12,219 nucleotides of DNA. Origin: an uncultured Solobacterium sp. Lineage in GTDB: Bacteria; Bacillota_I; Bacilli_A; Erysipelotrichales; Erysipelotrichaceae. Both the position numbers and the translations under genes were made by a program. The notes below the pieces were generated by a model. It ran no database searches and had not been told where the DNA came from. It worked only from the letters and a program-made list of their open reading frames with translations. Below are positions 508 through 11,822 of this stretch, piece by piece; the stretch's first letter is position 1; every line of letters begins with the position of its first letter. The DNA lies in assembly GCA_900552125.1 (NCBI GenBank), contig URYK01000062.1, forward strand, positions 1 through 12,219, written 5' to 3'.

Positions 508-1662
508 TTATTTTGCTTGATTGAGATAGTCCGCAAATTTTTTGATGGAGTTTTGCTCTCCAGTTTTTGTTGTATGGGTATAGATATCAAGCGTCATTTG
601 ACTACTTGCATGCCCTAAACGTTTAGAGGTATTGGTTGGGTCAATTCCGATTTCTGTCATAAGAGTAGCATGAGTATGTCGAAATCCGTGTGGACTGATA
701 GGTTTTAACTTGTATTTTCTGATAATCCGTTTGAGGATATTATTGAGATAGTCCGCATGTAAAGGTTCAATCTGGTCCGAGTTTGTCAAGTAGGTAAACA
801 TGTACTCATTAGAAAGGTCAATTTTTGAAATCGCTAACTGATTTTGTTCCTGCCTATAAAGTTCTTGCCAATGCTTTAAGATGTCAATGGTTTCACTATC
901 TAAATATATTGAGCGAACTGAAAAACTATTTTTAGTACCTTTTTCGATAGCATGACCATCAATCCTACCGATACTCTTATTGATAGTTAGTAGATTATTA
1001 TCAAAATCTAAGTCTCCCCATCTTAGAGCGTAAAGTTCTCCCTTCCGTAAGCCGCTATAAGCTAGTAAACGAAATAAGGCAAAGTGTTTATAAGGTTCTA
1101 TCTCTTTTACGATTTTTAAAAAGCGATGCAATTCTTCAAGAGACCAGAAGTTTTCTGATTTCTCTTTTTTTATTTTTGGCATGATAACATTAGCCATCGG
1201 ATTTTTGTCAATATAGTTCATGTTGATGGCAAAATCAAATATTTTAGATGTGTAAGACTTGATATGCTTCATATTTTTGAAGGTCTTTGATTTTTCTGTA
1301 ATAAAATTTTGACATTCCAATGGACTGATACGACTAATTGTCTTATGACCAAAAATTGGAAGGATATGAATGCGGTATATATCCTTAGTCTTTGCAGCAG
1401 TGGTAGCTTCAACAGTATTTTGATAAGCTTGGAACCATTCTTGATATAGTTCCTGATAGCTGATCTTGGTATTTTGCTTGGATGCTTTTAGAACTTCTGA
1501 AAGTTGACCAGTTTCTAGCCTAGCTTCATATACCCTAGCCTCTTTTTTAGTTTTAAAGCCTCGTTTTAGATGTCTCTTCTTTTTTCCGTATTCATCTAAA
1601 CCGATATAAAAGCTAACGTAATAAAAAAATCCTTTTTTTGTTTCGTATTTATGTATAGACAT
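508..1662 (-). CDS. int: Tyrosine-family site-specific integrase
   Basis: A 384-aa integrase that should carry out recombination between the element att site and the rpsI 3' end. Residues 1-50 form the AP2-like arm-binding region common in Gram-positive integrases. Residues about 65-150 are the SAM-like core-binding domain, and 170-384 the catalytic domain. The catalytic set is visible: R206 (SGLRKGEL), K244, H325 and R328 (HGFRHTHA), H351 (RLGHASS) and the nucleophile Y361 (DIYTHT). The length is typical and the gene intact. It sits next to attL with its stop facing rpsI, the usual layout for this type of element. A GGGGA stretch lies 6-10 bases upstream of the ATG. Expression may continue from the repressor gene, because no clear promoter of its own is visible in the 54-bp gap between them. 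Confidence 0.96.
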   Translation of the reverse strand: MSIHKYETKKGFFYYVSFYIGLDEYGKKKRHLKRGFKTKKEARVYEARLETGQLSEVLKASKQNTKISYQELYQEWFQAYQNTVEATTAAKTKDIYRIHILPIFGHKTISRISPLECQNFITEKSKTFKNMKHIKSYTSKIFDFAINMNYIDKNPMANVIMPKIKKEKSENFWSLEELHRFLKIVKEIEPYKHFALFRLLAYSGLRKGELYALRWGDLDFDNNLLTINKSIGRIDGHAIEKGTKNSFSVRSIYLDSETIDILKHWQELYRQEQNQLAISKIDLSNEYMFTYLTNSDQIEPLHADYLNNILKRIIRKYKLKPISPHGFRHTHATLMTEIGIDPTNTSKRLGHASSQMTLDIYTHTTKTGEQNSIKKFADYLNQAK

Positions 1663-1716: not shown

Positions 1717-2235
1717 TTATTTTTTGTGTCGATCTTCTTGCCTAATTCGGTATTCTTCAGTCTGAATCCAAGTTTGCCAAATTTCTGACTCTCGTTTTAA
1801 ACTATTCATGTGTTTAGTGAAGGTTTTCATGAATTCTTCCTCATGATTAACCAAGTAACGAGCTAAAATGCGTCTAAAATCGTCTGAGAAGCCCTCATTT
1901 AAGGGCATAGACAAATGAATCTCCCCTAATTCAATTCCTTTCTTCAGCTTCTCCATATCGCTTTTAAAAGGTGTTACAGAACTAATCTCGGAAACCTTAA
2001 AGCTGTCTGTGATAATGTCCATAGTTGACGGCGCTTGTCTATTATCGTCAAGTCCTAAGATGTAAGCAACAGATACTCCAAAATAATCAGCTAATTTTTG
2101 AGCATTTCCTTTTTTGGGTTGACGAATGCCTTGATTGTATCCCGATAAGGTAGGATAAGCAATATCTGTAGCAGAACTAATCTCAGTTAGTTTTTTGCCA
2201 CTCTCTTCTATCAGTTTTGCAATATGATTGGTCAT
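1717..2235 (-). CDS. XRE (Cro/CI-like) repressor of the element
   Basis: A 172-aa protein with an N-terminal helix-turn-helix of the Cro/CI type (about residues 4-62: IAKLIEESGKKLTEISSATDI, then YPTLSGYNQGIRQPKKGNAQKLADYFGVSVAYILGL in segments). The C-terminal half is charged and helical, and no LexA/S24 self-cleavage domain is visible. Induction is therefore unlikely to work by RecA-triggered autoproteolysis. The chosen ATG at 2235 has an AAGGAGG ribosome site just upstream. A longer in-frame start at 2265 would lie above the -10 at 2254-2259 and is rejected. The gene is divergent from the excisionase/replication operon across a region with three matching palindromes (2269-2329), where it probably binds to control both directions. 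It likely maintains the integrated state. Confidence 0.92.
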   Translation of the reverse strand: MTNHIAKLIEESGKKLTEISSATDIAYPTLSGYNQGIRQPKKGNAQKLADYFGVSVAYILGLDDNRQAPSTMDIITDSFKVSEISSVTPFKSDMEKLKKGIELGEIHLSMPLNEGFSDDFRRILARYLVNHEEEFMKTFTKHMNSLKRESEIWQTWIQTEEYRIRQEDRHKK

Positions 2236-2253
2236 AAATACCTCCTTGAGAGT

Positions 2254-2282
2254 ATTATAACACATTTAATTCTTTTTGAATA
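2254..2282 (-). promoter_or_regulatory. Leftward promoter of the repressor gene
   Basis: On the minus strand TATAAT (2259-2254) is preceded by TG one base upstream (TGTTATAAT), an extended -10. At 17-bp spacing the -35 is a weak TATTCA (2282-2277), which overlaps operator 1 (2269-2281). Transcription would start near 2247, just ahead of the ribosome site for the ATG at 2235. The overlap suggests autoregulation. Confidence 0.7.
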
Positions 2283-2383: not shown

Positions 2384-2668
2384 ATGGCTGATGAAACCAC
2401 TTTAGTTGTACAACTACCGAAATCATTGGAAAGACAGTTGAGAGCTTACTATGACGAGATGGTCAGTAGTGCCATCGCACGTGCTTTAGAGGATAAGGAA
2501 CTCTATAAGCCAATGGTTCGGATGTCTGCCTTATCCCGCTGGTTAGATGTTTCAACGACTACGATTCAAAAATGGACACGAGAAGGAATGCCTACAATGG
2601 TCATTGATGGCGTGACTCTTTACGATAAACGAGCAGTTACACGTTGGTTGAAGCAATATGAAAGATGA
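2384..2668 (+). CDS. Excisionase-like helix-turn-helix protein
   Basis: A 94-aa protein whose C-terminal half (about residues 46-94) is a MerR/excisionase-type winged HTH: MSALSRWLDVSTTTIQKWTR, a turn, then a hydrophobic hairpin (PTMVIDGVTLYDK) and a closing helix (RAVTRWLKQY). This layout is typical of small recombination directionality factors and of HTH_17 DNA-binding proteins. The N-terminal 45 residues are a charged helix of unknown role. It is the first gene of the repressed rightward operon, the usual place for an excisionase. GAGGTAA precedes the ATG. It could bind the 27-30 bp repeats near both ends of the element, but that is inference; a transcriptional role is the alternative. Confidence 0.75.
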   Translation: MADETTLVVQLPKSLERQLRAYYDEMVSSAIARALEDKELYKPMVRMSALSRWLDVSTTTIQKWTREGMPTMVIDGVTLYDKRAVTRWLKQYER

Positions 2669-2676
2669 GGTAGGGC

Positions 2677-3501
2677 ATGGCTAATAGACGAATGTTGAGT
2701 AAGACAGTGGTGCAGACGCAACGCTTTCTACGCCTACCACTTGAAGCACAGGCCCTTTATTGTCACTTGGTAGTTAATGCGGATGACGATGGGATTGTTG
2801 AGGCATTTCCGATTATGCGAATGATTAACGCCAATGAAGATAGCCTAAATTTATTAACCCTTAAGCAGTATTTACTCTTGTTAAACAATGAGATGGTTTA
2901 CTTTATCAAGGATTTCTTTGAGCAGAATACCATTAAAGCAGACCGTTACACACCTAGTAATCATCGTCAACTCCTTATCGATTATCTGAAGGATAATCAA
3001 TTGTTAGAGAAGATAAATCTAGGTCCACGCTTAATCAATTACCTTCAAACTACTCGGCTCCAAGTTGGAACCAGTCTGGATCCAGATGGGAACCTCAATA
3101 TAATTAAAGATAAGATAAGTAAAGATAGGATAGGTAAAGATAAGTTAAGTCAAGATAAGATAGGATTAGATAATGATCCAATCTCATCACGACTGACTGA
3201 TGATATCTGGTTAATGGAAACGCTATGGCATCGAGAATTAACCCAACATGAGAAAGTATTACTAGAGGAATTAACAGTTGAACATTCCTTATTGCAGTTA
3301 GCTATTCAGAAAACAGCTGAGCTTGAATCAAGGAAACAAAACATGAGTTACGTCAAAGGGATACTAACGAATTGGGAAGCTAGAGGACTTATCACTGCTG
3401 ACCAAGTGATAGCGTCTGAAAAAGACTACCATCCATTGGAAATTTCAAATGTGGAAGTATCTGAAGATTTCTTAGCAGCTATGGATTTATGGAAAGATTA
3501 G
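2677..3501 (+). CDS. Phage-type replisome organiser with DnaD-like C-terminal domain
   Basis: A 274-aa replication initiation protein. Residues 1-110 match the phage replisome-organiser N-terminal domain (MANRRMLSKTVVQTQRFLRL, QALYCHLVVNADDDGIVEAF). Residues about 185-255 match the DnaD/DnaB C-terminal domain, including the YxxxIxxxW motif in SYVKGILTNWEARGL. Such proteins bind an origin and bring in host primosome components and helicase. Between the domains is a linker of 5-residue repeats (KDKIS, KDRIG, KDKLS, QDKIG) encoded by a 15-bp DNA repeat that looks like an iteron array, so the origin may lie in the gene. The ribosome site GAGGTAGGG overlaps the stop of the preceding gene. Its presence implies autonomous replication after excision, as seen in phages and phage satellites. 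Confidence 0.88.
   Translation: MANRRMLSKTVVQTQRFLRLPLEAQALYCHLVVNADDDGIVEAFPIMRMINANEDSLNLLTLKQYLLLLNNEMVYFIKDFFEQNTIKADRYTPSNHRQLLIDYLKDNQLLEKINLGPRLINYLQTTRLQVGTSLDPDGNLNIIKDKISKDRIGKDKLSQDKIGLDNDPISSRLTDDIWLMETLWHRELTQHEKVLLEELTVEHSLLQLAIQKTAELESRKQNMSYVKGILTNWEARGLITADQVIASEKDYHPLEISNVEVSEDFLAAMDLWKD
3106..3165 (+). repeat. Four 15-bp iterons inside the replication gene, candidate origin
   Basis: Four direct repeats of period 15: aaagataagataagt (3106), aaagataggataggt (3121), aaagataagttaagt (3136) and caagataagatagga (3151). They are in frame and encode the interdomain linker. Phage replisome organisers often bind repeats located within their own gene, so this is a plausible replication origin. 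Confidence 0.7.
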
Positions 3502-3515
3502 GAGGATAACTAGAG

Positions 3516-3806
3516 ATGACAGTATATTATCAATTAGAGAATATGTTAGTGGCTGGTTTTAAGTCACAAGAGGAGTACGACCGCTACCTGGCCCTCAAGA
3601 AGGACTATGAAAGTGAGACAGAGGACTATAGCTTTTCGATTAGAGAAATCACAAATCAGCTTGAAATCATTTGTCAGGCCTTAGAGAATGATTTTCCGAA
3701 CTTATCAGAAGCATTACTGACCGATTATTTAGAACTGGTAGAAGAGTTGAAACGATATGATACTAATCAGGCAGATAGCTATTTAAGGATGGTCCGTCAT
3801 GTCTGA
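3516..3806 (+). CDS. Small acidic helical protein of unknown function
   Basis: A 96-aa protein that I do not recognise. It is acidic, without cysteine clusters or membrane segments. It reads as mostly helical, with a possible coiled stretch around residues 40-85 (SFSIREITNQLEIICQALEN, then LLTDYLELVEELKRYDTN). A good AGGAGG lies 10 bp before the ATG. Its stop overlaps the start of the downstream MobC-like gene by 8 bp, so the two are probably translationally coupled. By position it may help replication or relaxosome assembly, but the sequence itself gives no function. Confidence 0.8.
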   Translation: MTVYYQLENMLVAGFKSQEEYDRYLALKKDYESETEDYSFSIREITNQLEIICQALENDFPNLSEALLTDYLELVEELKRYDTNQADSYLRMVRHV

Positions 3807-4161
3807 ACGTGTCAGAACTATTTTAAAGAAGTTTTATGTGACGGAGTCGCAGAATGAAGTCCTTAATCAGTTAGTGGATGATACAGGATTAGTGACATTC
3901 TCTAATTATGCTCGTCGGATGCTCTTTAAGGAAACGTCGCTCTTTATTCAATTTGATGACACTCAGTTTGATGAAATGATTTATTCTCTGAGACGCATTG
4001 AAAATAATTTAAGGCAGTTATCTAAAATTGCAGAGCAGTCTCAAGATAGTCAAGCCTACAGAGCTATGGACTATAGCAGAAGGCTAGTTTCAAATTATGA
4101 AAAGCAGTTAACACGTTACCACAAGAAAAAGAAACGGAAATTATTATCTAAGGGAACTTAA
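3799..4161 (+). CDS. MobC-like relaxosome accessory protein 1
   Basis: A 120-aa basic protein resembling the MobC family of plasmid and IME mobilisation proteins. The N-terminal part looks like a ribbon-helix-helix DNA-binding fold (RTILKKFYVTESQNEVLNQL, then TFSNYARRMLFKE). It is followed by the typical MobC helix (SLRRIENNLRQLSKIAEQ, near residues 64-81) and a lysine-rich tail (KKKKRK). MobC proteins bind the transfer origin and help the relaxase open the DNA. The gene overlaps both neighbours, so it belongs to one operon. Normally a relaxase gene follows mobC; here a second MobC-like gene follows and no relaxase is found. The family assignment rests on motif resemblance. Confidence 0.72.
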   Translation: MSERVRTILKKFYVTESQNEVLNQLVDDTGLVTFSNYARRMLFKETSLFIQFDDTQFDEMIYSLRRIENNLRQLSKIAEQSQDSQAYRAMDYSRRLVSNYEKQLTRYHKKKKRKLLSKGT

Positions 4162-4517
4162 TGGTTAAAAAGAGAATTAGGAATGTTATTAAACAAGTCT
4201 TTTTGTCTGAAGAAGAAAATCAAAAACTGTTAGAGCGAATGAAGCAAGATGGTTTTTCAAACTTTTCTCGTTTTGCTAGAAAGCAGTTATTAAAACCTGA
4301 TTTTGAAGTCTGGACAGTGAGCTTTCCAGAATATTTGTCGCTGACAGGTAGATTATTATTTGTTGGTAGAGCAATTAATAGCCTCGCTAAAAGCACAACC
4401 CAGTTTGGAAAAATTTCCCAACAAGATTTGATGAAATTAGGTCAGTTGATGGAGGAACTTGTAGAATTGGTGGAGAAACAATTGAAGGAAGACAAGCAAC
4501 GAATAGCTAAGAAGTGA
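4161..4517 (+). CDS. MobC-like relaxosome accessory protein 2
   Basis: A 118-aa basic protein with the same plan as its upstream neighbour: an N-terminal ribbon-helix-helix-like part (IRNVIKQVFLSEEENQKLLE, then GFSNFSRFARKQLL), a central hydrophobic and helical part (SLTGRLLFVGRAINSLAKST) and a charged C-terminal helix. The shared SNxxRxARxxL pattern suggests the pair arose by duplication and diverged. The start codon overlaps the preceding stop by one base, which implies coupled translation. The two may form a heteromeric DNA-binding complex at a transfer origin in the non-coding stretch that follows. Alternatively they could be transcriptional regulators of ribbon-helix-helix type. Confidence 0.68.
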   Translation: MVKKRIRNVIKQVFLSEEENQKLLERMKQDGFSNFSRFARKQLLKPDFEVWTVSFPEYLSLTGRLLFVGRAINSLAKSTTQFGKISQQDLMKLGQLMEELVELVEKQLKEDKQRIAKK

Positions 4518-4591: not shown

Positions 4592-4610
4592 ATCATGTCG
4601 TCGTGAAAAC

Positions 4611-4799
4611 TCCCTGTACGGACAATGTACGGCACCGTATCAAGTACGGAAATGTCCTTAAAATATCAAAAGGACTTTGCGAGCTCAGACAGTGTATACA
4701 CACTATCATTAAAATAGAAACATCAGTAAAGGTCAGATTGACACTTTTAACTGATAGTTCAATTTTATTTTGGGGAGAATCCCCAAACCCCTGTGCATC
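4611..4799. other. Hairpin-rich non-coding region, candidate oriT
   Basis: The gap 4518-4907 holds no convincing gene but is dense in structure. GTACGG occurs at 4616, 4627 and 4644. TACGG-CA-CCGTA forms an inverted repeat at 4628-4639. GGACA (4620-4624) pairs with TGTCC (4653-4657), and GTCCTT (4654-4659) with AAGGAC (4670-4675). GTGTATACAC is a palindrome near 4692. ATCAGT (4722-4727) pairs with ACTGAT (4750-4755). TTTGGGGA-GAA-TCCCCAAA (4769-4787) is a perfect hairpin followed by CCCCTGTGCATC. A hairpin next to a C-rich nick-like stretch beside mobC-like genes fits an oriT. It could also be a single-strand replication origin. Confidence 0.45.
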
Positions 4800-4863: not shown

Positions 4864-4907
4864 AACAATGTCAAAGGTGACAAATTTTAAATAAGGAGGA
4901 AACCTAT

Positions 4908-4994
4908 ATGAAACCCTGCAAACAAACATTTGCAATTTACGGATTGCTATCTGGTTTAATTTATGGGCTTGTTTTCTTATTTTGGAAAGGATAA
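4908..4994 (+). CDS. 28-aa membrane peptide with glycine zipper
   Basis: A short gene with the clearest ribosome site of the operon (AAGGAGG, 9 bp before ATG). The product is MKPCKQTFAIYG followed by a hydrophobic run LLSGLIYGLVFLFW and a final KG. G12, G16 and G20 form a GxxxGxxxG glycine zipper in a single transmembrane helix, a pattern that favours helix packing. It stops 6 bp before the precursor gene, so the two should be translated from one message. I do not recognise a family. Possible roles are an immunity peptide that occupies the target, a helper of export or modification at the membrane, or a second, unmodified membrane-active peptide. Being the first gene, ahead of the attenuator, it should be made at high level along with the precursor. 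Confidence 0.7.
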   Translation: MKPCKQTFAIYGLLSGLIYGLVFLFWKG

Positions 4995-5000
4995 AAAGTT

Positions 5001-5141
5001 ATGGAACAACTAGAAATTTCAGAATTTCAAACACAAGGTTTTGAAGTCAAAAAACTAGATACAGATGATTTCTTATCTAGTGACCAAATGAACTGGAGTG
5101 TAACATTATGCTGCTGTCCATGTTGCTGTTGTTGTGGTTAA
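5001..5141 (+). CDS. TOMM precursor peptide with polycysteine core
   Basis: A 46-aa precursor. Residues 1-36 form an acidic leader (MEQLEISEFQTQGFEVKKLD, then TDDFLSSDQMNWSVTL). Residues 37-46 are the core CCCPCCCCCG, with eight cysteines, one proline and a terminal glycine. The enzymes encoded just downstream are the classic set for turning core cysteines into thiazoles, so this is the substrate in the same role as SagA of streptolysin S. Unlike SagA, the core has no Ser or Thr, no Gly-rich tail and no double-glycine end to the leader, so only thiazoles can form. The LDTDDF stretch recalls acidic LDxDDF-type leaders of thiopeptides, but without core Ser residues the pyridine ring chemistry is excluded. 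AAAGGA lies 9 bp before the ATG. The gene is too short for most annotation pipelines. Confidence 0.9.
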   Translation: MEQLEISEFQTQGFEVKKLDTDDFLSSDQMNWSVTLCCCPCCCCCG

Positions 5142-5169
5142 TTTTTTAACCCAATTATTAGTTGTCAAT

Positions 5170-5221
5170 AAAGCACTATAGTGATTCATTGCTTTTCAAT
5201 TGGATTCTATAGTGCTTTTTT
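5170..5221 (+). terminator. Attenuator-like terminator between precursor and enzyme genes
   Basis: AAAGCACTATAG (5170-5181) and CTATAGTGCTTT (5207-5218) form a perfect 12-bp stem, with a T run to 5221. The 25-nt loop contains a small inner hairpin (ATTG-CTTTT-CAAT). It lies 28 bp after the precursor stop. Partial read-through would give much precursor and less enzyme, as known for the terminator behind sagA in streptolysin S operons. Confidence 0.88.
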
Positions 5222-5246
5222 ATCCATAAATTAGGGAGTTTTGAGT

Positions 5247-6119
5247 ATGAGAACAAATATTACTTATTATATGTCATCAGAGGAAAAAATCTATATTAAG
5301 GATGGAACAAATATTTATGAATTGAAAGATTTCCCACAGAAAGAGTTTGAATTGTGTTGGAAAAGTTTACAAAACAGGAATCATGAAGATATTGATAATA
5401 ATTTAATTCCTTTAAGGGAAAGTTTAATAAAATTTTTGAATTCTATAGGTGCCTTTAATGTGGTTCGTAGTATTGAAGAACAACTGAATAATGTTGGATT
5501 AAATGGGTCTGGTAAATTTAGTAATTTTACTGTCGGTGTATGTGGTGACCAAGATCTTGTTAAATATTACTGTAAACAATATAACACGACTTATAATATC
5601 ATTGAGATAAAAACATTTACAGAAAACTTTGATTTTGGTTTGATTTTATCTAGGGATAGTAATGTAAAACAGTATTTACAATATAATAGAAAATTATATT
5701 CTACAGGAAAGGTATTTGATAGCTTATTATTTTCACAATTTAGTTTTCTTATTGGTCCACATACTGTTCCGAAATATACTTCTTGTATTGAATGTATGCG
5801 TCTTCATGAAGTTGATAATAATTTTTATGGAAATATTTTAACTGAATTTGATAAGATTGACATTGATAGTCAAGAATTTATTCCTGAACTAATGCTGAAT
5901 CTAGGGCTTTCTTTTTATGAGATACAAGTATTGAAACAAATCTTAAGTGATAGAAAAGATGCTGTAGAAGTTGAAAATTCTCAGAAAGTTTTATCCTATC
6001 AATTGTTAGAAGGAATTTGGGAAGAACATCATTTGTTAAAACATCCAAATTGTAGTTGTTGTTTTCCAAGAGAAATGGCGAATAAACAGATTTTTGAGGT
6101 AAATGTAAATGGTAATTAG
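5247..6119 (+). CDS. SagC-type cyclodehydratase partner (E1-like, leader-binding)
   Basis: A 290-aa protein of the TOMM cyclodehydratase C-protein class. It binds the precursor leader and delivers the core to the YcaO enzyme. Residues about 1-90 fit the winged-helix RiPP recognition element, and 93-185 a degenerate E1/ThiF-like part. Two cysteine pairs, C180-IE-C183 in the GPHTVPKYTSCIEC stretch and C269-S-C271 in HPNCSCC, match the structural zinc site of this family. The fold carries no clear ATP site, as expected, since YcaO does the ATP chemistry. ATG at 5247 is favoured by AGGGAG 8 bp upstream over a TTG two codons earlier. The 3' end overlaps the YcaO gene by 11 bp, so the partners should be made together. 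Here C and D proteins are separate, as in streptolysin S. Confidence 0.88.
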   Translation: MRTNITYYMSSEEKIYIKDGTNIYELKDFPQKEFELCWKSLQNRNHEDIDNNLIPLRESLIKFLNSIGAFNVVRSIEEQLNNVGLNGSGKFSNFTVGVCGDQDLVKYYCKQYNTTYNIIEIKTFTENFDFGLILSRDSNVKQYLQYNRKLYSTGKVFDSLLFSQFSFLIGPHTVPKYTSCIECMRLHEVDNNFYGNILTEFDKIDIDSQEFIPELMLNLGLSFYEIQVLKQILSDRKDAVEVENSQKVLSYQLLEGIWEEHHLLKHPNCSCCFPREMANKQIFEVNVNGN

Positions 6120-7323
6120 AAAAGCTCATAGATCGATATTTGTAGATGAGAGATATGGTCTAATAAAAAATATTTATAATTTACCAACTTTTGCAGGTCT
6201 ACCTAGAGTACATGTGAAAATGGCTTTTGGAGGAAATTATTTCACAGCGGGTTTTAATGCCAGTGGAGCTGGTATTACTGAACAGTCAGCGGAAAATTCT
6301 GCAATTGGAGAATATATCGAGAGATATTCTTGTCTACATCCTAGATCAGAAATAATTACTTGTGAATCAGACAGAAAAATATTACCATCAGTATTTAATG
6401 TGGGAGCTGATGATGGATTAGAAAATTATGATTGGATAAATGCTATCAATGTTATTGATTCGACTCAAGTTCAAATACCAATTGATTGTGTGTATTTGAC
6501 GTATAGAAGCAAAGGTAATTCGTGGGTTACGACTTCGACTGGTGCAGCTTGTGGAGAAAGTTTAGACCAGTGTATGTGGAAAGGGATTGCAGAGATTTTT
6601 GAAAGAGATGCTTTTCAATACATATGGCGTAGGCAACTTTCTTGTCCTAAAATAGATATTCATGAAAATAGTGAACTAAAAGTATTTTTTGATAAATATA
6701 TCAAATCTCCAAACATTGAGTTTTCTATTTATAAAATGGAGTTAGACTGGAATGTACCGGCAGTTTTTGGTGTAGCTAAATTTCCTAATGGTGGATGTGT
6801 AGTTGGAGCTAGTGTAAGACGTACGTGGATTGAAGCTTGTAAAAAAACATTAGTAGAACTTTCTCAGAGTGTTATCGGATATGCTGCATTAATTTTTGAT
6901 CCCAAACGTGAAAATATTGTGGATTATTCATTGATTAACGAATATCAGGACCATTCATTATTATATCTGTCAGATGGGATGTCTACACATTTGACATTTT
7001 TAGATAATGGGGAACGATTCGCTTTACCAGATGAATTAATTGTTGAGAATGATAAAGGAATTGCGGAATATTTTATCGATGCGGTAAGACGGATTGGAAA
7101 AGCAGCTTATTTTGTAGATGTGACTTCTAAAGAGCTTAGTTCTTTAAATTGGTTAGTTGGTAAAACGATTATACCAGGTATGTTAGATATTGAACCGAAT
7201 TTTATTAAATATTTAGAAGCTAATCGTTTAGCTGAGATTGATAAGAATCTGATTGATTTAGGATTACGAACAGAAAAAGAGCTGGGAAACCCTCAACCAA
7301 CTGTTCCTCATCCATTTCCGTGA
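6109..7323 (+). CDS. YcaO-domain cyclodehydratase (SagD type)
   Basis: A 404-aa YcaO enzyme that uses ATP to activate the peptide backbone and cyclise cysteine into thiazoline. The ATP/Mg motifs are visible: S64-x3-E68-x2-E71-R72 (SAIGEYIERY) and E162-x2-E165-R166 (AEIFERDAF), with a conserved STGAACGE stretch near 143-150. The C-terminus ends PHPFP, the PxPxP tail that azoline-forming YcaO proteins need for catalysis. The length is near that of a stand-alone D protein. Its ATG lies in the end of the C-protein gene, with TGAGGT as ribosome site. With the partner upstream it should form the complete cyclodehydratase acting on the 46-aa precursor. No key residue appears to be missing. Confidence 0.95.
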   Translation: MVIRKAHRSIFVDERYGLIKNIYNLPTFAGLPRVHVKMAFGGNYFTAGFNASGAGITEQSAENSAIGEYIERYSCLHPRSEIITCESDRKILPSVFNVGADDGLENYDWINAINVIDSTQVQIPIDCVYLTYRSKGNSWVTTSTGAACGESLDQCMWKGIAEIFERDAFQYIWRRQLSCPKIDIHENSELKVFFDKYIKSPNIEFSIYKMELDWNVPAVFGVAKFPNGGCVVGASVRRTWIEACKKTLVELSQSVIGYAALIFDPKRENIVDYSLINEYQDHSLLYLSDGMSTHLTFLDNGERFALPDELIVENDKGIAEYFIDAVRRIGKAAYFVDVTSKELSSLNWLVGKTIIPGMLDIEPNFIKYLEANRLAEIDKNLIDLGLRTEKELGNPQPTVPHPFP

Positions 7324-7335
7324 TTGGAGGCTAAG

Positions 7336-8145
7336 ATGGACGATTTTAAATTTACGATGATTAGTAACTATCATGCTTGTAAATTATCTGATGATGACTA
7401 TTTATTGCAATTATTTCATCAGAATACAAAACATGGAAATCAGTACTTGATGAGGAATATGTTCCAATCTAGAACTTTGCTAAATAATAAAAATTTTTTA
7501 AAGGCTAGCTCTGTTAGAGAGAAGCAATACCCCCTCTGTGAAAAAGTTCAACTACAGAATCGAACAAAAGATCTATTGATGGATTATATGTATAATAGAC
7601 GCTCACAAGTAAAGGAACCTGTTACAAATTATATTCTAACAGAAGAAATTATTTCGGATATTTTTTGGTCGGGTTATGGATTAAATTATAAACATACGAG
7701 GGTAGTTCCTTCAGGGGGAGCATTGTTTCCTCTTGAATTATATGGGGTTATTATGCAAGATGTAGGAAGGATAAAAAAAGGCCTATATCACTATAGTCCA
7801 TCTTCTAATGCGTTGGAATTGATTTCAGAAGAAGAAGATGTTTTTTATATTGCTTCCTATATTATGATGTTACAAAATCTTGAGAATACCTCGCTAGTTC
7901 TGTTTACTACTGCTATTTTTAGTAGGATGACTTTTAAATATGATGCAAGGGCGTATAGGTATTTGTTATTAGAAGCAGGAGCAATGTTGCAGAATATTTC
8001 TCTAGTAGCTACTAAATATAAATTAGTTAGCACATGTATTGGTGGAACTGATGATAATAAAGTTGAAGAATTACTAGGGATTGATGGAATTAAGGAGAGC
8101 TTAGTTAATTGTTTACTCCTTACCAAAGATGGAAGTTGGCAATAA
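7336..8145 (+). CDS. SagB-type azoline dehydrogenase (nitroreductase fold, FMN)
   Basis: A 269-aa FMN-dependent oxidase that should turn thiazolines into aromatic thiazoles. Family hallmarks are the RRS motif (R88-R89-S90), PSGGALFPLELYGV (125-138) and AGAMLQNISLVATKYKL (214-230), followed by GGTDDNKVEELLGID (236-250). The K201-Y202 pair in FKYDARAYRY matches the Lys-Tyr motif reported as catalytic in TOMM dehydrogenases. The ATG at 7336 is preferred because TTGGAGG at 7324-7330 is its ribosome site; an in-frame TTG at 7324 would lie inside that site. It follows the YcaO gene by 12 bp. The gene order precursor-C-D-B differs from sagABCD of streptolysin S. Confidence 0.93.
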   Translation: MDDFKFTMISNYHACKLSDDDYLLQLFHQNTKHGNQYLMRNMFQSRTLLNNKNFLKASSVREKQYPLCEKVQLQNRTKDLLMDYMYNRRSQVKEPVTNYILTEEIISDIFWSGYGLNYKHTRVVPSGGALFPLELYGVIMQDVGRIKKGLYHYSPSSNALELISEEEDVFYIASYIMMLQNLENTSLVLFTTAIFSRMTFKYDARAYRYLLLEAGAMLQNISLVATKYKLVSTCIGGTDDNKVEELLGIDGIKESLVNCLLLTKDGSWQ

Positions 8146-8146
8146 A

Positions 8147-9073
8147 ATGAAATACTATACTATAAAAAGAGGTGAAAGAAGTTCTCACAGTACTATATAT
8201 ATTGTATGCTCTAATTTTGAAAAAGATAGATTTCATATCATGGAACATATGATTATGAGTTTTCTCTTCAAAAAAGACATTCAAGGCGTAGATGCAGTGA
8301 CAACAGAAGACTTCATAAAGTTTAAAATTTTTAACCCGCTCATAGACTTACAGGAACTTATGAAAATTATTGATTCTGACTTGTGGTTTTCAGAAGAGTC
8401 ATATTATTTTGCTTTGTCAGAAATAAAACAAGAGAATGCTTTAATTAGCTCTAACATCAGTAATTTGTTGAACAAAATTATTTGTACAAACTATAAACTA
8501 GGAGAGAATGTTCCATTTGAAAGTTATAAAGAGTGGTTTTATAAAGTATTATCTTCAATGAGTTGTATGACAATCTCTAATCAAATTGAAAAAAGTGCAG
8601 ATTTCTCTGAATTAACAAGTAGTTCAAATAGGGGAGTTCTTAGCTATAATGATGTTGATTTCTTCTATTCATATATTAAGTTAGCATTTTCAGATATTCC
8701 CAACTTTTCTAGTTTTTATTTCTTACAAAATTTTTCGAATCATATTAATAAAAGATTGAAGAAGTTGAGGAATTCGGGTATTTATTATGCATTTTGCTTT
8801 TGTAAATATCATAGAGAATATGTAGAGTTTTTTATCGTTATTTCTATAAATAAAACAGTTCCAAATTGTTATGACTATATTATTGATGAACTAACTGCTA
8901 TTTACAGAGCTTATGATTATCGTGAAAATCATGATACTGGAGTGCAGGAATTTAAAGAAGATTTGTGCGCAATATATTTGACAGATTCATTTATTGAGAG
9001 TAATATTCCCGAATTTACTTCTGTTCAAAGAGATTTTGTTAATAAAATAATTTTGATGTTGGGTGGTGATTAA
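8147..9073 (+). CDS. M16-like zinc peptidase, candidate leader peptidase
   Basis: A 308-aa protein with H30-I-M-E33-H34, the inverted zinc motif HxxEH of M16 (insulinase/pitrilysin) peptidases. E92 or E96 in FALSEIKQENALI is a candidate third ligand. That spacing (about 60) is shorter than the usual mid-70s, and the remaining sequence is diverged. M16 members usually have two such domains or pair with an inactive partner; at this length there is room for little more than one. In streptolysin S and many relatives the protease is a membrane CAAX-type protein, and this cluster has none. The protein is thus the best candidate for leader removal. M16-like proteins do process other bacterial peptides (AlbE/AlbF for subtilosin, PqqF). 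The start is uncertain: 8147 is 1 bp after the preceding stop, and 8129 is an alternative. Confidence 0.72.
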   Translation: MKYYTIKRGERSSHSTIYIVCSNFEKDRFHIMEHMIMSFLFKKDIQGVDAVTTEDFIKFKIFNPLIDLQELMKIIDSDLWFSEESYYFALSEIKQENALISSNISNLLNKIICTNYKLGENVPFESYKEWFYKVLSSMSCMTISNQIEKSADFSELTSSSNRGVLSYNDVDFFYSYIKLAFSDIPNFSSFYFLQNFSNHINKRLKKLRNSGIYYAFCFCKYHREYVEFFIVISINKTVPNCYDYIIDELTAIYRAYDYRENHDTGVQEFKEDLCAIYLTDSFIESNIPEFTSVQRDFVNKIILMLGGD

Positions 9074-9074
9074 A

Positions 9075-9944
9075 GTGAATAATGTTTTTGAAATATCAAA
9101 TATTACCAAATCATTCAAAAATAAACAAATATTAAAAGGTGTTGACTTGGTTGTGAACAAGGGTGATATCATTGGACTTTTGGGTTTGAATGGTGAAGGA
9201 AAGTCCACTTTAATAAAAATAATTTTAGGTATACTTTCTCAAGATTCTGGGGAGGTTAAGAGGAATTTCGAGATTAAATCTGATGTTGGGGTTATGTTGC
9301 AGGAAATTTCTATGCCTGAGAAGATGAAGGTCTACGAATGGTTAGATATGGTGAAGCGCTTTTCAACCAATTCCAAATCAGTCGAAAGTGTTTTAGATAG
9401 TGTTAACTTAAGAACAGTGAAGAATAAATATTGTGACTCTTTATCAGGTGGACAACAAAGGCGAGTTCAATTTGCTACTGCGATAATTAATAATCCTAAA
9501 GTACTTATATTGGATGAACCAACAGTAGGGATGGATGTAGTATCAAAAAAAGCATTTTGGGAGACGTTAAACACATTTTCGTTCAGTAAGGATTTGACAA
9601 TAATCTTGATTAGTCATGATATGGAGGAAGTTTCTGAGTTCTGTAACAGAGTACTTATTTTGTCAAAGGGGCTATTAGTTTCAGATAGTAAAATGACTAA
9701 TGTTCAGGATAAAATCGAAAAACGCTCATCGTATTCAGTAGATAAGAGTCAAATAACTCAAAAACAATTAGAAGTAATTAAAAAATTTAGTTTTGAAGAG
9801 ACTGATTCTGAAATAGAATTTAAGTATCAAATGATAGATGAAGTAGTATCTATAGGAAAAATTCCTATTTCGATTATAAAAAAGAATCAAAGTAATCTAC
9901 GTCAATATTTTATGGAGGTATTAGAAAATGTTCCAAGCGAGTAG
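9075..9944 (+). CDS. ABC transporter ATP-binding protein
   Basis: A 289-aa ATPase that powers the exporter whose membrane subunit is encoded next. Motifs are complete: Walker A G37-LNGEGKST (with E where A is more common), signature LSGGQQ (123-128), Walker B VLILDEPT (143-150) and switch histidine H181. Residues about 205-289 form an extra C-terminal part seen in drug and bacteriocin ABC-2 transporters. The GTG at 9075 is chosen because GGTGG lies 7 bp upstream; a GTG at 9063 in the same frame is the alternative. Its 3' end overlaps the permease gene by 17 bp. By context it exports the mature azole peptide and probably also protects the producer. Confidence 0.94.
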   Translation: MNNVFEISNITKSFKNKQILKGVDLVVNKGDIIGLLGLNGEGKSTLIKIILGILSQDSGEVKRNFEIKSDVGVMLQEISMPEKMKVYEWLDMVKRFSTNSKSVESVLDSVNLRTVKNKYCDSLSGGQQRRVQFATAIINNPKVLILDEPTVGMDVVSKKAFWETLNTFSFSKDLTIILISHDMEEVSEFCNRVLILSKGLLVSDSKMTNVQDKIEKRSSYSVDKSQITQKQLEVIKKFSFEETDSEIEFKYQMIDEVVSIGKIPISIIKKNQSNLRQYFMEVLENVPSE

Positions 9945-10671
9945 ACTTTTCTTCTTAATATGGTTGGATATAAAAAGGGTTTTTAGAGATACCAAATATG
10001 TATTATTTATCATTGCTTTGCCTGTCATTTTTTATATTATATATACAGCGATTTTTCCTAAAAATGCTAATGTTAACGATGTACCGTGGTCAGAGTATTG
10101 TTTAATTTCTATGATTGCTTTTGGAATTATGGGGAATGCAATCAATCTCCTTGGTACTAAAATTGCAGATGAACGAAAAAAAAAATGGTATACTTATTTG
10201 AGAGTATCTCCAGTTAATTCTATTTACTATGTGATTAGTCATGTATTTTCATATTTGTTGATCTCAGTTGCTTTTACATTCCTTATGTTTGTAGTTGCCT
10301 ACCTTTATAAAGGAATCAATTTAGGAGTACTTGAAACGATTAATATAGGAATTACACTAAATATTGGAAGTGTTGTATTTTTAATTATGGCCTTGCTAAT
10401 CGGTAGATTAGATAGTTTGTCTCAACCAATCGGAACAATAACATATTTAGTGCTTTCTTTTTTGGGTGGTTTATGGATGCCAGTGGCAGCTATGCCAAAA
10501 TTTCTTTCTCAGATTGCAACTTTCTTGCCATCGTATAACTACGCTCGCCTGGGGTGGCGATTGTTAGAAAATAAAGGTATTGATGTTAGATCTGTAACTA
10601 TTCTCTTTATTTATATTATATGCTTCTTGGGAATCTATATCTTATTACAGAGAAAGGAGCAGGCTAATTAG
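9928..10671 (+). CDS. ABC-2 type transporter permease
   Basis: A 247-aa integral membrane protein with six predicted helices (near residues 25-45, 57-80, 103-128, 135-160, 168-190 and 222-241) and the ABC-2 family layout, including a conserved stretch ahead of the fifth loop (SFLGGLWMPVAAMPKFLSQI). It should dimerise and pair with the ATPase encoded upstream, whose gene it overlaps by 17 bp. GGAGGT precedes the ATG by 9 bp. Only one permease gene is present, whereas streptolysin S operons have two (SagH and SagI), so this exporter is a homodimer or of a simpler type. Confidence 0.92.
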   Translation: MFQASRLFFLIWLDIKRVFRDTKYVLFIIALPVIFYIIYTAIFPKNANVNDVPWSEYCLISMIAFGIMGNAINLLGTKIADERKKKWYTYLRVSPVNSIYYVISHVFSYLLISVAFTFLMFVVAYLYKGINLGVLETINIGITLNIGSVVFLIMALLIGRLDSLSQPIGTITYLVLSFLGGLWMPVAAMPKFLSQIATFLPSYNYARLGWRLLENKGIDVRSVTILFIYIICFLGIYILLQRKEQAN

Positions 10672-10680
10672 GAGGCTTTT

Positions 10681-11196
10681 TTGAAAATAAACGAGTACTT
10701 TGGAAATATATCTAAATTAGAGAAAATGTTGTCCGAGTGGATTGATTTACCAGTCTCTTTAAACGTACGCTCAGCAGAAGCGAAAAATATAACATTTCTT
10801 TTTGAAAATTTTGGTGAGGAAGAGATTGTTAGTTTTTTTAAAGATAATATTCAACAGACTGAACATGCCGTTGTAGGTTATAGACAAGATGACACTTATG
10901 GAGATATATTAGGAAAATGCGACTATCAGGATGTGCTGTATTTTGAAGGTATTGGTGATAAGGTATATGCTTATGCTGACAATCTCACTTTGCGTCTAAA
11001 AAATAAGTTGTATGAGATAGAAGAGTTCAGCAAATTATATGTGAGAATTAGTAAATCTTTTATTGTTAATATATTAGTTGTAGAAAAAATTTATCCTTCT
11101 CTGAATGGAAAATTTCTCATTGAATTAACAGATGGTCAAAACTTAACGGTTTCTCGAAAATATAAAAAACAATTTTTAGAGTACTTGGGGGATTAG
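10681..11196 (+). CDS. LytTR-domain transcription regulator
   Basis: A 171-aa regulator with a C-terminal LytTR DNA-binding domain (about residues 78-171): DVLYFEGIGDKVYAYA, LYVRISKSFIVNILVVEKIY and LTVSRKYKKQFLEYLG. The N-terminal 75 residues are not a receiver domain and no phosphoacceptor aspartate context is seen, so it is not a classic two-component regulator. The start is a TTG placed 5 bp behind AGGAGG; no ATG fits as well. A DUF3021-like membrane protein follows directly, the arrangement of LytTR regulatory pairs such as HdrRM and BrsRM of Streptococcus mutans, which control bacteriocin genes and in which the membrane partner holds the regulator inactive. A direct-repeat site at 4794-4825 is a likely target. 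Confidence 0.9.
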   Translation: MKINEYFGNISKLEKMLSEWIDLPVSLNVRSAEAKNITFLFENFGEEEIVSFFKDNIQQTEHAVVGYRQDDTYGDILGKCDYQDVLYFEGIGDKVYAYADNLTLRLKNKLYEIEEFSKLYVRISKSFIVNILVVEKIYPSLNGKFLIELTDGQNLTVSRKYKKQFLEYLGD

Positions 11197-11198
11197 TG

Positions 11199-11588
11199 GT
11201 GAAATACTTAAAAAAACTTCTACTCTTGCTTTGCATTGGTGCAATCTATAATCTATATTTTACTCTTATAAATTCAGGTTTAACGTCTTGGATCAATATT
11301 ATTATATTCATAGTATTTGGATATGTTGAAGTACTTGCTTTAGAGTTGTTATTTAAATACTCCATTAAATTTCAGAAAAGCATCTATATCCAAATACTTA
11401 CTATATTTTTAATATCTAGTATAGTTGAAATAGCATATATGCTGGTTACTGGTTTGAGTTTTACTATAGCGATTCATTTTGTTTTGCTAGGAATACCTGT
11501 TACAATCATTGGTTTATTGTATTGGAAATATCATGTTGATAAAATTGAAAAATTATTAAGAGACAAAAAATCTAATCTATCGAATTGA
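11199..11588 (+). CDS. DUF3021-like four-helix membrane protein
   Basis: A 129-aa hydrophobic protein with four predicted membrane helices (about residues 6-26, 30-53, 62-84 and 88-110) and a basic cytoplasmic tail. Size, topology and position directly after a LytTR gene fit the DUF3021 family. Such partners are thought to restrain the LytTR protein at the membrane. Of two adjacent GTG codons, 11199 is preferred because GGGGG ends 7 bp upstream; 11196 would be too close and overlaps the preceding stop. It is the last gene of the operon. It could instead help immunity, but the pairing points to regulation. Confidence 0.8.
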   Translation: MKYLKKLLLLLCIGAIYNLYFTLINSGLTSWINIIIFIVFGYVEVLALELLFKYSIKFQKSIYIQILTIFLISSIVEIAYMLVTGLSFTIAIHFVLLGIPVTIIGLLYWKYHVDKIEKLLRDKKSNLSN

Positions 11589-11766: not shown

Positions 11767-11822
11767 TAAAAAACCAGGTCTTAAAAAAGCTCGTAAAGCT
11801 TCACAATTCTCAAAACGTTAAT
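11767..11822 (+). repeat. attR: recoded rpsI 3' end, right boundary of the element
   Basis: It reads in frame as [17 protein letters not shown] and stop, the same residues as the true rpsI end, but with five synonymous base changes against 272-327. The last 22 bp (11801-11822) are identical to attL. The part before the core is element DNA, so the element carries an rpsI tail of different origin. Confidence 0.92.

Follow-up and report, generated by a model that had tools for sequence, protein, structure and literature searches.

A putative mobile element encoding a predicted linear thiazole peptide with a near-invariant cysteine core

Gene content of the locus

The window, by which we mean the whole 12,219-nucleotide stretch analyzed here, contains a predicted biosynthetic cluster for a thiazole/oxazole-modified peptide (TOMM) between the repeats of a putative mobile element. 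We call a cluster close if its YcaO protein shares 38% identity or more with that of the window; the clusters of this kind compared here at the DNA level number 10, the window counted among them. The features are as follows.

272 to 327, no strand: attL at the rpsI 3' end, a 56-nt direct repeat 91% identical to 11767 to 11822, spacing 11,495
508 to 1662, minus strand: tyrosine integrase with arm-binding and SAM-like domains (PF00589, 2.6e-25)
1717 to 2265, minus strand: HTH regulator of the Cro/C1 type (PF01381, 7.3e-07)
2384 to 2668, plus strand: small HTH protein, perhaps an excisionase (phrog_668, 1.3e-08; phrog_66, excisionase and regulator, 9.8e-04)
2677 to 3501, plus strand: DnaD-like helicase loader (phrog_5708, 4.1e-48; PF07261, 5.8e-08)
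3516 to 3806, plus strand: DUF5962 protein (PF19387, 3.5e-45)
3799 to 4161, plus strand: NikA-like mobilization protein (PF21983, 8.8e-09)
4161 to 4517, plus strand: weakly matched MobC/NikA-like protein (PF21983, 0.002, and PF19514, 0.0026, both under the gathering score)
4908 to 4994, plus strand: unlisted 28-aa hydrophobic micropeptide ORF directly 5' of the precursor, with counterparts in 8 loci
5001 to 5141, plus strand: predicted TOMM precursor peptide of 46 aa, with counterparts in 10 of 10 close clusters (dN/dS 0.071 and 0.058 in two pairs)
5109 to 5135, plus strand: core Cys3-Pro-Cys5, precursor residues 37 to 45, exact in 9 of 10 clusters
5170 to 5218, plus strand: hairpin running into a T run in the gap between precursor and C gene (90-nt stretch, MFE -19.7, z -4.27)
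5247 to 6119, plus strand: E1-like/leader-binding cyclodehydratase partner, or C protein (TIGR03882, 2.3e-06, 27.9 bits, below the cut-off of 36.9)
6109 to 7323, plus strand: YcaO cyclodehydratase, or D protein (PF02624, 1e-38; TIGR03604, 4.1e-50, 170.7 bits, below the cut-off of 219.25)
7324 to 8145, plus strand: SagB-family FMN dehydrogenase (TIGR03605, 123.4 bits, cut-off 78.4), with a listed TTG start and an ATG at 7336
8129 to 9073, plus strand: short M16-type zinc protease, with HxxEH at residues 36 to 40, E102, and an M16 fold in its model
9063 to 9944, plus strand: ABC transporter ATPase (PF00005, 6.8e-28)
9928 to 10671, plus strand: ABC-2 type permease (PF01061, 2e-13)
10681 to 11196, plus strand: LytTR-domain regulator (PF04397, 3.4e-17)
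11196 to 11588, plus strand: small membrane protein beside the LytTR gene, with counterparts in L018, L016, and L013
11767 to 11822, no strand: attR, the second copy of the 56-nt direct repeat

Read as a whole, the sequence appears to be that of an 11.5-kb mobile element carrying the entire cluster, and an integrase, 56-nt flanking repeats, and a NikA-like gene are present. The frame at 3 to 326 is presumably the end of ribosomal protein S9 (rpsI), as recognized from its translation. Two identical 44-nt tandem copies, the first beginning inside the att repeat, occupy positions 308 to 395, so that part of the att site is duplicated at the left end. Two consecutive mobilization accessory-like genes lie at 3799 to 4517; no relaxase gene was recognized there, and the element ORFs scanned gave no match to a relaxase family. 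Ahead of the cluster, at 4609 to 4704, the motif tacgg recurs several times and is accompanied by a near-palindrome (agtgtatacacact, at 4691), partly present also in the remnant L109 discussed below; this region is possibly a transfer origin.

The precursor ORF (5001 to 5141, plus strand) translates as MEQLEISEFQTQGFEVKKLDTDDFLSSDQMNWSVTLCCCPCCCCCG, with a predicted leader MEQ...DFLSSDQ. A sequence-only reading had described a 46-aa peptide ending in ten residues, eight of them cysteine, directly ahead of a set of thiazole-forming enzymes, and both statements are confirmed: the C terminus is CCCPCCCCCG, the ATG of the E1-like gene (5247) follows the precursor stop after 105 bases, YcaO and SagB genes come next, and the set is complete with the expected motifs. 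The genes downstream of the precursor are tightly packed on one strand in the order E1-like C, YcaO, SagB type, HxxEH protein, ATPase, permease, LytTR, and small protein. All cluster ORFs are open in the window, and the motifs tested are intact.

The C protein has two CxxC pairs that are invariant in 10 of 10 aligned rows, and the best Foldseek matches of its model (pLDDT 79.8) are the heterocyclases 4v1t (cyanobactin type) and TruD 4bs9 and a McbBCD subunit. The modeled fold is that of a heterocyclase partner, the E1-like component expected of a TOMM cluster. In YcaO, residues E68/E71/R72, E162/E165/R166, and Q253 and a C-terminal PHPFP are invariant in 15 of 15 aligned rows; we take the invariant residues to be the ATP site and PHPFP to be the PxPxP motif. 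This YcaO is 99% identical to P0013, a Streptococcus suis protein according to its source. In SagB, K205-Y206 is invariant in 10 of 10 aligned rows and is presumably the catalytic Lys-Tyr pair. The locus therefore holds what is found in TOMM clusters, namely, YcaO, an E1-like partner, an FMN dehydrogenase, and a short precursor with a Cys/Ser/Thr-rich core adjoining the enzymes.

No Pfam family matches the HxxEH protein. All 11 aligned rows keep its residues H36, E39, H40, and E102, and the 50 Foldseek matches listed for its moderate-confidence model (pLDDT 67.4) are M16 proteases and M16-fold proteins, e.g., bc1 core subunits. They include a homologue of AlbEF, which acts as the protease in a RiPP pathway. 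The modeled fold suggests that the HxxEH protein is probably an M16-type leader protease. An "insulinase family" gene is annotated at the same position in the cluster of a Lactiplantibacillus plantarum plasmid, and direct comparison of the two proteins was not significant. According to the portion of PMC10885120 consulted, an M16 heterodimer cuts off the leaders of some class III lanthipeptides.

The ATPase matches 188 NCBIfam families, and among the matches listed none lies above its cut-off. The protein at 11196 to 11588, which we read from its sequence as a membrane protein, had no Pfam or NCBIfam match above cut-off. Matches to this protein and to the LytTR regulator were absent from the three Staphylococcus loci (L011, L012, and L015).

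Conservation of the core across genera

The genome collection was searched with an alignment of 13 YcaO relatives, which returned 9 relatives at 7 distinct loci (two loci belong to one draft strain); a protein search gave 23 YcaO proteins, and the precursor count covers species also met as genome loci. Together with loci from further genome searches, this gives the ten close clusters, those of the window, Streptococcus gallolyticus BI02 (L014, fragmented), G045 (L018), Listeria immobilis (L016), Staphylococcus cornubiensis (L011), S. intermedius (L012), S. pseudintermedius (L015), G684 of the same genus (L114), Lactococcus ileimucosae (L013), and G557 (L053), another Bacilli genome outside Streptococcus, Staphylococcus, Lactococcus, and Listeria.

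A precursor was found in all ten, adjoining the C gene in nine and 1.9 kb off in L114. Because a counterpart stands upstream in each of the ten close clusters, the ORF at 5001 to 5141 is a genuine gene rather than a chance reading frame. Its identification as the precursor gene of a TOMM cluster, as the sequence-only reading had proposed, is well supported by sequence comparison. Conservation of the cysteines had been set beforehand as a test, and it was passed: nine of the ten clusters have CCCPCCCCC unaltered, with all eight Cys and the Pro, and L053 has CCCPCCCCF, keeping seven Cys. The peptide may stop right after the Cys run or go on with Gly or Val, and in L053 a Gly stands behind the Phe; two residues at most come after the run or its remnant.

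The conserved block exceeds the Cys run, reading [DE]DFL[AS][SN][DE]QMNWx[VI]TL-CCCPCCCCC in the nine closest precursors. At position 33 the precursors carry Ser, Thr, or Asn, and the Asn, found in L114, weakens the idea that this residue is an invariable ring-forming hydroxyl. Position 35, two residues ahead of the Cys run, is Thr except in L053, where it is Ser; conservation of this residue beside the run makes an oxazole at position 35 possible. The earlier expectation of a product devoid of Ser/Thr-derived rings is for the same reason not established.

Cys codons of the core interchange almost exclusively by silent changes. In a 16-codon stretch that includes the core, the 21 pairs formed by seven loci show 0 to 7 synonymous Cys codon changes and no non-synonymous ones, and each of the 7 pairs involving L053 has one non-synonymous Cys change in the same comparison; L114 stands outside it. 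The precursor dN/dS is 0.071 between the window and L018 and 0.058 between L011 and L015. The C, D, B, M16, and permease genes give 0.04 to 0.32 in the computable pairs, with the caveat that the window/L018 pair is near saturation (dS 1.5 to 2.2) and that its permease value was not computable. At the sequence level, the core is kept under purifying selection.

Identity to the window across six loci, leaving out the near-identical BI02 copy, is 35 to 48% for C, 56 to 70% for D, 54 to 72% for B, and 26 to 37% for M16. The corresponding values are 24% (C), 38% (D), and 36% (B) in L053 and 61% (D), 57% (B), and 25 to 42% (C, in two pieces) in L114. The enzymes of close clusters are thus mostly 24 to 72% identical to those of the window, while the core is near-invariant.

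A precursor search among proteins matched 8 of 8 candidates, of which 5 keep CCCPCCCCC and 3 have lost it through a frame change or fusion (P0008 joins the leader to an M16 segment); these three lie on short contigs and could be artifacts of assembly. The homologue P0001 reads as a fusion of micropeptide and precursor. A scan of 284 Streptococcus genomes for the loose codon pattern Cys3-x-x-Cys4 gave 18 sites, spread over 16 genomes. Three of these sites have Cys3-Pro-Cys (G001, G045, and G046), and all three are the precursor gene. Three non-precursor sites were examined (G112, G145, and G166), and their surroundings showed distant ABC ATPases or no match.

Two further features accompany the precursor. 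The micropeptide ORF is preceded by a Shine-Dalgarno-like sequence (AAGGAGGA), and micropeptides of 25 to 30 aa, all with G-x-x-Y-x-x-x-F, occur in the window, L014, L018, L011, L012, L015, L013, and L016, ending 3 to 22 bases before the precursor start. Their dN/dS is 0.26 to 0.48 in four close pairs with few changes. The micropeptide is also retained in L075, a deleted form of the window's element; it was not seen in L053 or L001, and its frame looks broken in L114. All eight loci that were folded have a stem between precursor and C gene (z -1.72 to -4.27), with sequences that differ by genus and a weak U tract in L053. The window hairpin at 5170 to 5218 was missed by a simple consensus terminator scan, and Rfam gave no match at gathering score. 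The hairpin may give a high ratio of precursor to enzymes.

Distribution, sister clusters, and deleted relatives

Close YcaO genes occur in 2 of 284 Streptococcus genomes (G045 and G046; G065 and G134 have relatives at 27 to 29% identity) and in 4 of 84 genomes of the genus taken as Staphylococcus; 398 genomes of the class gave 42 YcaO matches, 3 of them close. The phage and viral collections yielded no YcaO relative. Among plasmids, 15 records match YcaO, all at <60% identity, and the precursor matches none.

The genomic setting of the cluster differs between hosts. In Staphylococcus pseudintermedius, S. intermedius, and S. cornubiensis, it stands just before what we take to be a radA-like gene, with a presumed clpC-like gene on its other flank in L015 and L115. 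An integrase lies near L018, and the Lactococcus locus (L013) adjoins genes that we regard as plasmid-like. These differing settings suggest horizontal spread between genera, together with stable residence in the S. intermedius group.

Sister clusters share the overall design. The WCCCCYFCTSTG clusters of G065 (L022) and G296 (L054), plus the L. plantarum plasmid cluster (L001), have the order C-D-SagB-M16-ABC, preceded by short precursors that carry a Cys run; in L054 the C gene is assigned by position only. Compared to the window, their D proteins are 27 to 28% identical, their M16 proteins are larger (409 to 424 aa), and their cores are WCCCCYFCTSTGK/S and WCCLFCCCC instead of Cys3-Pro-Cys5. 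The streptococcal locus L022 (12052 to 12329, minus strand) has two tandem precursors ending in YCCCC.. and WCCCC.., with core WCCCCYFCTSTGK and an M16-like gene. At 7158 to 7370, L054 has core WCCCCYFCTSTGS and the same gene order, M16-like gene included. Plasmid pPB of L. plantarum encodes an unannotated 35-aa precursor ending in WCCLFCCCC (L001, 5532 to 5639) by YcaO, SagB, insulinase, and ABC genes. The YcaO of a second plasmid (L002) is annotated as two pieces.

Some relatives have lost genes. G001, the nearest genome in the collection, has the element at 98 to 99% identity without window positions 5405 to 8960: C is cut after about 53 residues, D and B are gone, M16 is reduced to its last 37 or so codons, and a 90-aa in-frame remnant results. 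Its precursor is 100% identical to that of the window, and its ATPase, permease, LytTR, and membrane genes are 98 to 99% identical. The permease is found at ≥70% identity in 4 of 284 Streptococcus genomes (G001, G198, G045, and G046); among the matches listed, others are at ≤31%. G198 is without window positions 4884 to 8296, which include the precursor, and without most of the left part of the element. Its M16 and ATPase frames are broken, the latter by a frameshift, and its permease, LytTR, and membrane genes are open. This remnant occupies L109 6689 to 10404, where precursor and synthesis genes are missing. The frameshifted ATPase of G198 led us to reject the idea that a functional transporter survives in every deletion variant.

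Other relatives are damaged in different ways. The G046 cluster is in pieces with stops, the C gene of L013 contains a stop, and in L114 the C match is split, M16 and ATPase match only in part, and the precursor lies far off. In the Lactococcus locus (L013, 11042 to 12688), the M16 and ABC ATPase frames are apparently fused into one 548-aa ORF. The permease matches of the Listeria locus (L016, 5599 to 6323) fall in two pieces in different frames, and the gene looks interrupted.

Candidate product and known systems

We conclude that the TOMM cluster of the window is probably mobile and self-contained and makes a linear thiazole peptide, most likely a self-protected polythiazole bacteriocin active against related Gram-positive bacteria. 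In the proposed pathway, the E1-like C protein would bind the leader (MEQ...DFLSSDQ), and YcaO with C would turn the Cys run into thiazolines, possibly along with Thr35 and Ser33. SagB would oxidize the thiazolines to thiazoles, giving predicted blocks of three and five rings with Pro between them. The small M16 protease would then cut off the leader, and the ABC-2 transporter would export the product, protect the producer, or both, presumably under LytTR control.

The bacteriocin role is the likeliest one on several counts. The cluster lies on a putative mobile element, and G001 has no synthesis genes yet still has the precursor and transporter; giving up costly synthesis while keeping protection is consistent with a bacteriocin. 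Against this role, transporter retention is not uniform, as the broken ATPase of G198 indicates that plain decay also happens, and ABC-2 transporters may serve export rather than protection. Also on the negative side for the overall reading are the three Staphylococcus loci with no match to the LytTR regulator or membrane protein, the loss of the core in three of eight precursor homologues, and the moderate confidence of the M16 model. The number of broken relatives (G001, G198, G046, L013, L016, and L114) could even mean that the cluster is a decaying relic that makes nothing in its host. We hold this to be the least probable reading, as the cluster ORFs of the window are open with tested motifs intact and dN/dS is 0.04 to 0.32 in the 11 computable gene pairs (with window/L018 near saturation).

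The same C, D, and B logic, an ABC transporter, and a Cys-rich core would also suit a streptolysin S-like cytolysin directed at animal cells instead of a bacteriocin, and the hosts are streptococcal, staphylococcal, and listerial. Such a product is unlikely, however, given that SagC, SagD, and SagH scores fall below curated cut-offs, that at most two residues follow the Cys run or its remnant, and that an M16 protease takes the place of the CPBP protease which the text consulted of PMC10763512 gives as LlsP of lls-type loci. We consider it quite improbable that the peptide is instead a metallophore or redox peptide, with thiazoles as ligands or with unmodified Cys. Eight consecutive thiols or thiazoles and near-invariant Cys would be in keeping with metal binding, but no metal transporter, receptor, or metal-regulator gene was recognized among the cluster proteins scanned, and the regulator is of the LytTR type. 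Moreover, if the Cys stayed unmodified, the conserved YcaO and SagB genes would serve no purpose.

Returning to the polythiazole bacteriocin, several genera share a nearly identical precursor ending, and the clusters therefore probably specify one conserved compound of antibacterial type. Bacteriocin cores tend to vary, and a near-invariant core beside enzymes at 24 to 72% identity seems unusual for them. A core that stays nearly constant while the enzymes diverge points to a conserved target and to a single compound worth isolating. A more specific version, in which all eight Cys form an all-thiazole octamer (3 + 5, with Pro) with one conserved target, the membrane micropeptide is an integral immunity or export helper, and elements that keep the transporter after losing the synthesis genes persist as resistant non-producers, is a speculative extension that we think rather doubtful. 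The unbroken C-terminal Cys run would allow the number of rings and the order of their formation to be counted by mass (eight thiazoles would lower the calculated monoisotopic mass of the precursor from 5216.12 to 5055.91 Da), and the natural enzyme-gene deletion in a near-identical element offers a ready comparison strain for immunity.

The cluster resembles those of streptolysin S and listeriolysin S in its C-D-B logic, ABC export, and Cys-containing core and differs from them in its M16 protease and C-terminal Cys run. Scores against the streptolysin S families are below cut-off (SagC, 15.7 versus 187.65 bits; SagD, 170.7 versus 219.25; SagH, 16.4 versus 450), so that by curated scores the cluster falls outside this family. 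Plantazolicin-type LAPs likewise have contiguous azoles built by YcaO, C, and B; in contrast to these, no methyltransferase family match was seen among the cluster proteins scanned.

Among named groups, gallolytisin comes nearest; it was predicted, without a product, as a streptococcal TOMM group with a Cys run and is one of ten unexplored groups (Cox et al. 2015, PMC4603692, in the portion consulted). The sequence-only reading knew of no characterized product with this core. None came to light among the best matches listed in the largely open literature searched, where the core string is unmentioned, but the kind had been predicted, as gallolytisin; the name was met only in Cox et al. 2015. 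Like gallolytisin as described there, for S. gallolyticus, the window combines a streptococcal setting with discrete C and D proteins, ABC transporters, a regulator, and a Cys run with one interrupting residue; the same text places gallolytisin D proteins nearest plantazolicin D. The S. gallolyticus-type locus L018 has a YcaO 70% identical to that of the window and core CCCPCCCCCV, the S. gallolyticus-type P0005 has Cys3-Pro-Cys5, and P0012, which its source names S. gallolyticus, is almost the same as the C protein of L018.

The core motif printed for gallolytisin is Cys4-Xaa-Cys4, where Xaa is Pro, Ala, or Asp (PMC4603692, as consulted), whereas nine of the ten precursors here have Cys3-Pro-Cys5 and one has Cys3-Pro-Cys4. 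Cys4-[Pro/Ala/Asp]-Cys4, read by eye, was found at 0 of the 18 pattern sites in the 284 Streptococcus genomes. Since the printed formula fits 0 of 10 precursors, we call the cluster gallolytisin-like; the formula may be loose, and the cluster may yet belong to the group. The description in the consulted text of PMC4603692 includes no M16 protease, micropeptide, hairpin, or mobile element and no Staphylococcus, Listeria, or Lactococcus members. To a kind of cluster predicted earlier, the present analysis adds a near-invariant core across genera, a probable M16 leader protease, a micropeptide, a hairpin, a putative mobile element, and natural forms that appear to be non-producers.
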